Shown here: positions 1,683 to 55,115 of the stretch, piece by piece | Layout: each line of letters begins with the position of its first letter | Position numbering within the stretch: the first letter of the stretch is position 1 | Source of the DNA: Candidatus Bathyarchaeota archaeon | GTDB lineage: Archaea > Thermoproteota > Bathyarchaeia > Bathyarchaeales > Bathycorpusculaceae | Assembly: GCA_003141855.1 (NCBI GenBank) | Contig: PLNS01000027.1 | Coordinates: 160,473 to 220,122 of the forward strand | DNA length: 59,650 bases | Reading direction: 5' to 3' | Notes under the pieces: generated by a model | The model's input: the letters and a program-made list of their open reading frames with translations, nothing else | Told to the model about the DNA's origin: nothing | Database searches by the model: none | Position numbers and translations under genes: made by a program

Positions 1683-1756
1683 GCATGTTAACGGCTTTCG
1701 GGGTATTAAAACCAGTCGAGCAGAAATAGCCCTTTGGAATGTTGCCTTTAGCTTAA

Positions 1757-1820
1757 ATGCAAAATGCTTAAGGGGGGTAGGCCGCCATTGCCGTTTTTCA
1801 GCTTCAAAAGTATGTTAAGA
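1757..1820 (+). repeat. Degenerate half-unit of the AGGGGGTAGGTC repeat family
   Basis: The intergenic stretch between rio1 and the aIF1A gene contains CTTAAGGGGGGTAGGCC, then CCATTGCCGTTTTTCAGC and TATGTTAAG. This aligns by eye, piece by piece, with the second half of the long copies at 37.48 and 54.73 kb (CCTAAGAGGGGTAGGTCC, TAATGGCGTTTTTTGAAGCC, CATGTTAAA). The hairpin arms are no longer perfectly complementary, so this looks like an old decayed unit. Confidence 0.55.
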
Positions 1821-7202: not shown

Positions 7203-7240
7203 TCTCTTAAGTGACCTCCCCCTCCCCTTATTTGAAGGCG
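7203..7240 (-). repeat. Short copy of the AAATAAGGGG / AGGTCAC repeat
   Basis: Read on the minus strand, this convergent intergenic gap shows TTCAAATAAGGGGAGGGGG followed by AGGTCACTTAAGAG. It matches TTTAAATAAGGGAGGGGG and TAGGTCACAAGAG at 27424-27455 almost base for base. It lies between the stop codons of aspA and the beta-helix gene, so a promoter role is unlikely here. Confidence 0.5.
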
Positions 7241-12873: not shown

Positions 12874-13824
12874 GTGACAGAGAATCAAAAAACAAGCCAA
12901 GAAGGAAACATCAACCTACAAATAGACAAAATAAAGAAGCAAATTGGTGAAGCAAACGCTCAAATCAAAAAGTACGTTGAGAAAAGAAACCAGTTGCACG
13001 GGCAGGCAAGAAAGTCCCGTGAAGAAGTCAACCAGATAAAAACTGAAAGGGACGCCTTGAATGAGAAGGTAAAGTTGCTCAAGGAGCAAAGAGACCTCGT
13101 CAGAGTCAAAGCAACACCAATCATGGAAGAAGTAAATGCTATAGATGAAAAAATCGCTGAACTCAAAAAGAATGTGCCACGAGTGAGTCAGCGTGAATTG
13201 CAAGAGGAGCTTGACGCGATTGAATGGAAAATTTCAACGACTTCACTTGACTTGCAGGAGGAGAAAAGGCTCGTAGGCGATGTGAAAGAGCTTGAAATTC
13301 AGCTTAAGAGTTACAAAAAAATAGATAAAAAACACCAAAAAATCAACGAGTTACTTACCCAATGCAAGGCGATTGATGCCCAAGCTGGCGTGTACCATAA
13401 AGAATTAACTGATTTAGCCAAGAAGAGCCAAGAATTACACGCCACAATGATGGAAAAAGTAAATACTGTGAAAAGAGACAGGGCTGAAGCAGATAGCCTC
13501 CATCAAGCGTTTGTTAAAGCCAAGGAGCAAAACACTCTTTGGTATGAGCAAATTAAGCAATTGATCGATCAAAATAGGGGCCTGAGGGTCACAATTAGAG
13601 AATATGACCTAGCCAAGAGAAAGGAAGAAGACGCTAAAAGACAAGAAGAGCAAGCTAAATGGAAAGAGGTACAAGCGCAAAGAGCAGTTAAAGAGAAAGA
13701 GATTAAAGAAAAAATTGGCTCTGAAGCTAAAGAAAAACTGCAACGTGGCGAGAAAGTTAACTGGGATGAGTTCCAAATGATGCTTGGCGACGATGAAGAA
13801 GATGATTCGGAAACGCAAGATTAA
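12874..13824 (+). CDS. Archaeal coiled-coil protein (COG1340-like)
   Basis: This 316-residue protein is almost entirely coiled coil, with long heptad stretches dominated by K, E, Q and L from residue 15 to 290 and an acidic tail (DDEEDDSETQD). It resembles the archaeal family COG1340, sometimes mislabelled phosphoserine phosphatase. It starts with GTG at 12874. There is no membrane segment. It is followed after 36 bases by the DUF373 membrane protein, so the two may be cotranscribed. A scaffold or complex-assembly role is plausible, but function is not known. Confidence 0.75.
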   Translation: MTENQKTSQEGNINLQIDKIKKQIGEANAQIKKYVEKRNQLHGQARKSREEVNQIKTERDALNEKVKLLKEQRDLVRVKATPIMEEVNAIDEKIAELKKNVPRVSQRELQEELDAIEWKISTTSLDLQEEKRLVGDVKELEIQLKSYKKIDKKHQKINELLTQCKAIDAQAGVYHKELTDLAKKSQELHATMMEKVNTVKRDRAEADSLHQAFVKAKEQNTLWYEQIKQLIDQNRGLRVTIREYDLAKRKEEDAKRQEEQAKWKEVQAQRAVKEKEIKEKIGSEAKEKLQRGEKVNWDEFQMMLGDDEEDDSETQD

Positions 13825-27262: not shown

Positions 27263-27455
27263 GAGCATATTTGGGTCCTAATAGAAATAGCATGCAGAAA
27301 CCTATAGGGGGTAGGATCACTAATCGCGATTCTTCGAACCAAAAGCATGTTTGAAACCCTAAGAGGGGTAGGTCGGTATTGGCCTTTTCCAGCAGGCATT
27401 AGCATGTTGAACGCGGTTGGTGCTTTAAATAAGGGAGGGGGTAGGTCACAAGAGC
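27263..27455 (+). repeat. Long copy 1 of the AGGGGGTAGGTC intergenic repeat
   Basis: This copy lies between the diverging-away ends of polB (5' side) and the VWA gene (3' side). It begins CATATTTGGGTCCTAATAGA, continues GAAACCTATAGGGGGTAGG (27298-27316), then CCCTAAGAGGGGTAGGTC (27357-27374), GGCATTAGCATGTT, and adds a third G-rich block TTTAAATAAGGGAGGGGG with TAGGTCAC (27424-27449). The hairpin arms of each subunit are partly mutated compared with the 54.7-kb copy. No reading frame spans it. Confidence 0.75.
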
Positions 27456-37406: not shown

Positions 37407-37535
37407 GAACATATTTGGATCCTAATAGTGGTTCGTTGCAGAAACCTATAGGGGGTAGGTCACCAGTGCCGATTCCCTAAGAGGGGTAGGTCCGTAATGG
37501 CGATTTTTTAAGCCATTAGCATGTAGAAAATAAGG
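37407..37535 (+). repeat. Long copy 2 of the AGGGGGTAGGTC intergenic repeat
   Basis: It starts GAACATATTTGGATCCTAAT, has GAAACCTATAGGGGGTAGG (37441-37459) and, after only 14 bases, CCCTAAGAGGGGTAGGTCC (37475-37493). So the first subunit's hairpin is deleted relative to the 54.7-kb copy. The second subunit has the perfect inverted repeat TAATGGC (37495-37501) and GCCATTA (37512-37518). It abuts the stop codon of the zinc-finger gene on the other strand. The sequence from 37305 to 37406 is AT-rich and featureless apart from a T-run at 37319-37328. Confidence 0.8.
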
Positions 37536-41664: not shown

Positions 41665-41777
41665 CCAACTAAAAGGCATCTGCCTCTCTGAGCGACTTCT
41701 TCCCCATAGGTTTCTGAAACGCAACTCTATTGGCTCCAAATGTGTCGCGTAAAATTAGGGAAGAGAGGACGAGTAGG

Positions 41778-54437: not shown

Positions 54438-54499
54438 GTGTAACGATACGCAATCAGAATTTGGATTTTCGGCTTCGATAGGTTAGTAAATTTGGAAAG

Positions 54500-54574
54500 T
54501 GGACCGGGCGGGATTTGAACCCGCGGCTTCCGCGTTGCGAACGCGGCGATCATACCGAGCTGATCTACCGGCCC
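54500..54574 (-). tRNA. tRNA-Ala (CGC)
   Basis: The 75-base gene folds into a standard cloverleaf. The acceptor stem GGGCCGG pairs with CCGGTCC and contains G3:U70, the alanine identity pair; the discriminator is A. The D arm is GATC-loop-GATC. The anticodon stem CCGCG/CGCGG carries loop TTCGCAA with anticodon CGC. The T arm is GCGGG-TTCAAAT-CCCGC. CCA is not encoded. No intron. Confidence 0.95.
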
Positions 54575-54639: not shown

Positions 54640-54797
54640 GGGCATATTTGGCGCCTAATAGAAATAGTATGCTGAAACCTATAGGGGGTAGGTCACTAAT
54701 GGCGTTCTTTCAAGCCAAAAGCCTTCTTGAAGTCCCTAAGAGGGGTAGGTCCGTAATGGCGTTTTTTGAAGCCATTAACATGTTAAAAAGTATAGGT
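54640..54797 (+). repeat. Long copy 3 (best preserved) of the AGGGGGTAGGTC repeat
   Basis: It begins GGCATATTTGGCGCCTAATA and contains two homologous subunits of about 58 bases. Subunit A is GAAACCTATAGGGGGTAGG (54673-54691) plus TCACTAATGGCGTTCTTTC. Subunit B is TCCCTAAGAGGGGTAGGTCC (54733-54752) plus the perfect hairpin TAATGGC (54754-54760) / GCCATTA (54771-54777) with a T-rich loop, ending CATGTTAAAAAG. It lies 65 bases from the 5' end of tRNA-Ala and before the stop of the next minus-strand gene. Confidence 0.8.
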
Positions 54798-54817: not shown

Positions 54818-55099
54818 TTACTGTTTTTTGGTTTTTGCCTTGCGCTTTGTCCCTTGCATTTTTGTGGGTTCGTCCCAGTATTCGTCGAATTCTCCTGGCG
54901 ACATGATGTTTAAGCTTGCAAGTTGCTGGCTGAAAGCATCCAAGGCGCATGGGTTGTTCAGGTGCGCCCGATAAATTTCCATAAGCAAATCAACAGCCAT
55001 CGACGGCGAAACCGGCTTTTTCGCCATCAACGACAATTCCTCAGAAACCTTAACTAAATCCTCATGAACACGCAAGGGCAAATCAACAGTCTTAGTCAT
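54818..55099 (-). CDS. Small antitoxin-like protein, 93 residues
   Basis: From the ATG at 55099 the protein starts MTKTVDLPLRVHEDLVKVSE, a strand followed by a helix as in ribbon-helix-helix proteins, and has a second helix SPSMAVDLLMEIYRAHL. The C terminus is basic (TKRKAKTKKQ). It resembles solitary CopG-like regulators. The flavodoxin gene lies 16 bases upstream on the same strand, so the two may be cotranscribed. No toxin gene is adjacent. Confidence 0.6.
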   Translation of the reverse strand: MTKTVDLPLRVHEDLVKVSEELSLMAKKPVSPSMAVDLLMEIYRAHLNNPCALDAFSQQLASLNIMSPGEFDEYWDEPTKMQGTKRKAKTKKQ

Positions 55100-55115
55100 A
55101 CCAATCACTTTCTAA

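Follow-up and report, generated by a model that had tools for sequence, protein, structure and literature searches.

Modular repeats in the window

The window, i.e., the whole 59,650-nt stretch of DNA analyzed here, carries at positions 54640-54797 a G-rich repeat lying between a tRNA-Ala gene and a small ORF. Three long copies had been reported (27263-27455, 37407-37535, and 54640-54797), and all three were present and were also scored by R1, a covariance model that uses sequence only and was trained on 25 copies. Each copy had been described as a tandem of two related subunits, which correspond to modules c3 and c4 in all three. The copy at 27263, however, does not consist of two subunits only and has a third module, c5. 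The copy at 37407 indeed lacks the first hairpin, its c3 inverted repeat having been deleted. The features are as follows.

54499-54574, minus strand: tRNA-Ala adjoining the reported copy (Rfam)
54640-54797, plus strand: reported copy, c3 + c4 tandem, with tRNA-Ala on one side and the small ORF on the other
54644-54661, plus strand: dyad A, ATATTTGG-CG-CCTAATAG, at the 5' end of c3, conserved in the 25-copy alignment
54678-54694, plus strand: c3 core, CCTATAGGGGGTAGGTC, near 2 bits per column in 65 own copies
54697-54717, plus strand: first (imperfect) inverted repeat, in c3, TAATGGC ... GCCA
54735-54751, plus strand: c4 core, CCTAAGAGGGGTAGGTC
54754-54777, plus strand: second inverted repeat, in c4, TAATGGC ... 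GCCATTA, then ACATGTTAAAA; no covariation across copies
54818-55108, minus strand: small ORF adjoining the reported copy
27263-27455, plus strand: copy with c3, c4, and c5 (c5 is TTTAAATAAGGGAGGGGGTAGGTC, at 27424-27447)
37407-37535, plus strand: copy with c3 and c4, c3 inverted repeat deleted
1756-1820, plus strand: decayed single copy, core CTTAAGGGGGGTAGGCC (R1, E 8e-7)
7211-7236, minus strand: copy of a c5-type module, TTCAAATAAGGGGAGGGGGAGGTCAC
41689-41743, minus strand: decayed copy, ACATTTGGAGCCAATAG ... AGAAACCTATGGGG (R1)

The R1 matches were at 54643-54728 (E 6e-24) and 54735-54789 for the 54640 copy, at 27266-27355 (E 6e-22) and 27358-27408 for the 27263 copy, and at 37410-37474 (E 1.5e-16) and 37476-37529 for the 37407 copy. 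The decayed relative noted at 1757 was recovered by the same model. The reverse relative noted at 7203 also exists on the minus strand, but it belongs to another module type, c5. The decayed copy at 41689-41743 had been overlooked; it lies on the minus strand, so the copies are not all on one strand, which the genome-wide strand count given below also shows. An Rfam scan returned tRNA only, the element being without a match. The DNA polymerase B gene adjoining the 27263 copy did not keep its upstream neighbors in relatives, and this comparison was uninformative.

Copy number and module order in the genome

R1 was applied to the genome of the source archaeon (G000, 2.39 Mb), where it gave 160 matches; the 150 matches listed correspond to at least 116 loci. 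Among the matches listed, these 116 loci were divided equally between the strands (58 plus, 58 minus), and comprised 85 single, 29 double, 1 triple, and 1 quadruple copies. In the same genome, GGGGTAGGTC occurred 109 times compared to once for the reversed pattern, and TATTTGGNNCCTAWTA, allowing one mismatch, 128 times compared to three, indicating that the repeat is not due to chance. The initial annotation had proposed a covariance-model search of the whole genome and its relatives, and had held that the family would fall if no further copies were found or if similarity ended with the G-rich core. Many further copies were found in both, and neither expectation of failure came true.

Six core types were distinguished:

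c1: ACCTATAGAGGGG
c2: AACGATAGAGGGG
c3: ACCTATAGGGGGTAGG
c4: CCCTAAGAGGGGTAGG
c5: TTWAWATAAGGGAGGGGG
c6: TTTAWATAAGGGGGYTATAG

At the G000 loci, 51 pairs of neighboring cores followed the order from c1 to c6, none was reversed, and one was of the same type, indicating that the copies are sub-sets of one ordered six-module parent. For the order to be so fixed across loci, the copies must derive from one parent. All modules within one locus were on the same strand. The element is modular and 60-160 bp in length. A dyad, ATATTTGG-NN-CCTAATAG, and then a freely varying 8-nt stretch lie 5' of c1-c3, TATTGGCG ... GCCATTAGCATGTT lies 3' of c3 and c4, and the c5 module, which most G000 copies do not have, carries a TATA-like stretch. 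The half-sites TATTTGG, TATTAGG (the complement of CCTAATA), TATTGGC, and TAATGGC resemble one another, which suggests, by inference, a single binding protein for both dyads.

The 8-nt stretch between the dyad and TGCAG (54662-54669 in the window, and in other copies) showed a limited set of combined states, such as AAAT, AAAC, AGGT, TAAT, or GATA with AGCA, ACGA, TCAT, or TCTA, and these states differed between species at shared sites. In the element copy at C8:44104-44195 of G000, two N mark an assembly gap within the repeat.

Placement relative to genes

Genes were called with a simple codon-usage gene finder. The intergenic location claimed for the window copies held genome-wide, as all but one of the 116 loci (among the matches listed) were intergenic. 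The copies avoided start codons; the median distance was 173 bp to a start and 77 bp to a stop, and 5% of copies were within 60 bp of a start compared to 39% for a stop. This proximity to stop codons would suit a role in the neighboring genes as 3'-UTR elements or transcription terminators. However, 28 copies are flanked by divergent genes, so that no transcription enters them, and neither strand is preferred. An orientation bias among the first 41 copies (12 antisense, 1 sense) vanished in the full set, where 27 copies were antisense to codirectional genes, 22 were sense, and 29 were convergent, showing no bias to gene direction in G000. The terminator reading is largely refuted, and we consider it highly improbable.

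Along the G000 chromosome, no strand polarity was observed (46 of 93 neighbors shared a strand). In G000, the copies were spaced a little more evenly than at random (P ~0.003 unconditioned, 0.01-0.02 conditioned); in G022, a sister species, the effect was not significant (P 0.13). This evenness is weak and gives a hint only.

Distribution among relatives

As far as searched, the family was confined to Bathyarchaeia, with nearly all copies in a single GTDB family. In the genome contigs searched, an exact 24-mer from the core occurred only in Candidatus Bathyarchaeota. R1 matches numbered 96 in G007, 100 in G013, 111 in G024, 57 in G018, 128 in G025, and 104 in G022. Within the genus the distribution was patchy: copy-rich members had 57-160 matches, and most of the others had few or none. 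Model-independent counts of the dyad A pattern agreed with this (128 in G000 and 155 in G025, with most other genomes at the control level). On a tree of 15 genus members, about four changes were needed to explain copy-rich status, and clustering was no better than shuffled.

The c5 class numbered 96 in G011, 49 in G018, 31 in G009, and 28 in G000, with almost none elsewhere in the genus, and a class-wide search found it within the same GTDB family only. The c1-c4 and c5 classes are distributed separately, so that species carry c1-c4, c5, or both; some close relatives are without the family entirely or have the c5 class only. G011, with its 96 c5 copies, had almost no c1-c4. The c5 copies of the sister species G011 and G018 share a 45-bp block (TTTAWATAAGGGAGGGGAGGTCAGCnnTGAGASGTCGCGTGRTTC) that includes a TATA-like box.

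G214, from another genus of the same family, had near-identical copies (88.5 bits, nearly as high as own copies), which fit the G000 consensus better than those of most same-genus species. At the level of sequence, this near-identity hints at horizontal transfer or exchange. Patchiness within the genus and between genera, and the score of G214 above same-genus species, would both be expected if the copies were relics of a non-autonomous mobile element (MITE- or BOX-like) that was moved in trans, then persisted as neutral passengers that selection removed from promoters and genes, with conservation reflecting recent spread. The fixed six-module order, which implies copying from a single parent, and locations away from genes and start-codon regions also fit such relics, as does one copy on an IMG/VR contig, where it adjoins an integrase gene.

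In viral contigs, no exact c3 core was found, and one c4 copy was found on one contig. This contig, IMGVR_UViG_3300048598_000369, is classed as viral, and its element copy (13050-13140) lies just 3' of a phage-integrase-family ORF. This copy may belong to flanking host DNA or to an attachment region.

Tests for RNA structure

The initial annotation had suggested a conserved hairpin and, as one possible identity, a family of small RNAs. As shown in the feature list, an imperfect inverted repeat is present, but it is without covariation: in c4, paired positions made up 79.3% observed compared to 79.6% shuffled. An RNAalifold consensus had only five pairs, none with a compensatory change, and folding energy was ordinary (z −1.35 to 0.10). 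The hairpin was therefore rejected as an RNA structure. A closing RNA stem, TAGCATGC/GCATGTTA, was seen in one fold and was not kept in the consensus structure.

If the copies encoded small RNAs or acted as RNA, the TATA-like box of c5 would serve as promoter, with transcription beginning about 25 nt downstream of it, at a conserved GAGA. Consistent with this, the box and GAGA are separated by a fixed 28 nt in nearly all of 40 G011/G018 copies, and 13 of the 40 have an inverted repeat, CGGATACG-loop-CGTATGCG, after the c5 block. Nevertheless, the lack of an Rfam match, of covariation, and of unusual folding energy argue against this reading, as does the absence of c5 from most G000 copies. Moreover, neither the G000 copies nor the c5 copies of G011/G018 preferred a direction relative to the next gene. 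The TATA-like c5 leaves a little room for small RNAs, but we regard them as unlikely.

Tests for mobility

The hallmarks of mobile elements were also examined. Terminal inverted repeats were no better than shuffled (P 0.37), and target duplications were absent in 43 copies, where the mean shared word was 4.28 compared to 4.27 shuffled, the boundaries of decayed copies being uncertain. The Y1 (REP-type) transposase PF01797 gave no matches in G000, G013, G007, G018, and G022, while control genomes were matched; a REP/RAYT system was rejected for want of this enzyme. A CRISPR array was also rejected, as the units are dispersed, single to quadruple, with divergent sequences and irregular spacing. 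The statement that the repeat is neither an insertion sequence nor CRISPR was right.

Shared sites and constraint

We compared the copies with those of the sister species G022. Among the best 30 of its 104 matches, flanking genes matched the flanks of own copies in 18, the own flanks used covering 354 kb of 2.39 Mb. Conversely, 15 own loci had synteny in about 780 kb of G022, and about 10 of these had the element at the same place and on the same strand. The element was missing from G022 at 4-5 of the 15, indicating that single sites are dispensable; no clean insertion scar or clean empty site was seen among them. Site C1:126185 was common to three species (G000, G022, and G007), and site C1:162202 to G000, G022, and G024. 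The number of modules at one site varied between species. Many sites are therefore old residents common with the sister species.

Ten unit pairs taken from shared sites differed at 53% of positions in the 8-nt stretch and at 16% in dyad A. In TGCAGAAACCTA, 0-3 of the 10 pairs differed per column, with 0 or 1 in most columns, although only recognizable copies were counted and the apparent core conservation is partly inflated by this. The 3' half of the core, GGGGGTAGGTC, was more variable in these pairs, partly through one-base shifts. With the 8-nt stretch so different and the dyad and 5' core little changed, the resident copies appear constrained.

These results bear on the mobile relics introduced above. 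Most copies with testable synteny are common to G022, and neutral decay would not be expected to give sharply different rates in neighboring columns at shared sites; inverted termini, target duplications, the Y1 transposase, and clean empty sites were likewise wanting. The earlier suggestion of a small non-coding mobile element holds for copying from a parent but conflicts with these absences and with the many old residents. We consider such relics a possible, though not the favored, explanation.

Copies at a shared site resembled one another no more than they resembled the rest of the family. The free positions are thus saturated, and others are kept. Species preferences were also observed, G022 having TTTGGATCC with GATATCAT, and G000 TTTGGAGCC with AAATA... 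These preferences may have arisen by gene conversion or by renewed spread instead of selection, or else through a reader co-evolving with its sites.

Proposed origin and role

The ordered parent indicates past copying, while shared positions and uneven rates indicate that the copies now stay and are constrained, which favors reading them as sites. We propose, at a probability of about 0.5, that the family is a modular dispersed element resembling BOX, whose copies spread in the past and are now kept as DNA sites for a putative sequence-specific protein. The composite parent would have had six related modules, each with a G-rich core beside AT-rich dyads or a TATA-like stretch, and would have been copied to about 100 intergenic places. 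Modules would then have been lost or gained singly at each place, probably by recombination between like cores, leaving ordered sub-sets. From the dyads TATTTGG-NN-CCTAATA and TATTGGC ... GCCATTA, which share the half-site TAWTNGG, and from the G-run, we infer a binding protein, probably dimeric, for which the copies are predicted sites. On this view, the copies would act neither as RNA nor as local gene switches but as DNA sites across the genome, serving chromosome organization or a broad regulator.

A chromosome-organizing site, the last of the identities first suggested, best fits the constraint on resident copies, their position between genes without regard to gene direction, and their slightly even spacing, but no candidate binding protein was found. 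More speculatively, and with considerable doubt, the copies could be lineage-specific genome-wide composite sites through which a predicted protein organizes the Bathyarchaeia chromosome, with modules swapped (c1-c4 for c5-c6) and sites kept and homogenized while their reader co-evolves.

Our results point away from ordinary junk repeats and toward a genome-wide set of DNA sites not described before, and the literature searched contained no earlier description of the element. Dispersed modular repeats at such density are well known from bacteria; to our knowledge, they are little described in archaea. If the copies are protein sites, they offer an entry point, as DNA bait, to an archaeal chromatin or regulatory protein, and if they are mobile, they represent an archaeal counterpart of BOX elements. 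On either reading, they give a major uncultured group a family of ready-made markers.

Comparison with known systems

BOX elements of Streptococcus pneumoniae have three module types, IS-like terminal inverted repeats, and a predicted RNA stem-loop (PMC3049150). Like the present element, they are dispersed, mostly intergenic, and non-coding, occupy many loci in a ~2-Mb genome, and have distinct modules in fixed order and variable number, with length varying between strains at the same locus (PMC3049150). In contrast, the archaeal element has six module types and shows no inverted termini, target duplication, RNA covariation, or transcribed stem-loop, and no sequence relation is claimed. By analogy of form, BOX is the closest system.

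REP repeats have GTAG near the repeat, a feature shared with the present element. REP/BIME repeats also exceed 100 copies per genome and are intergenic, often composite, and built on inverted repeats (PMC2817692), whereas the Y1 transposase is missing from G000 and four other copy-rich genomes. In addition, REP/BIME units alternate in orientation, whereas the present modules always have one orientation. MITEs of archaea and bacteria are likewise short, non-coding, multi-copy, and intergenic (PMC10969869), but their hallmarks, terminal inverted repeats and target duplication, are absent here, and no parental IS was identified.

In keeping with a protein-site family, the conserved dyad occurs at many loci and is kept at shared sites. 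Scattered palindromic protein sites do exist on archaeal chromosomes, as the SegB sites of Sulfolobales indicate (PMC12284271); these are a 13-bp motif, TCTAGA-S-TCTAGA, found mostly inside genes at tens per genome and tied to organization of the chromosome. The present element differs from them in being 60-160 bp, modular, located between genes, and unrelated in sequence.
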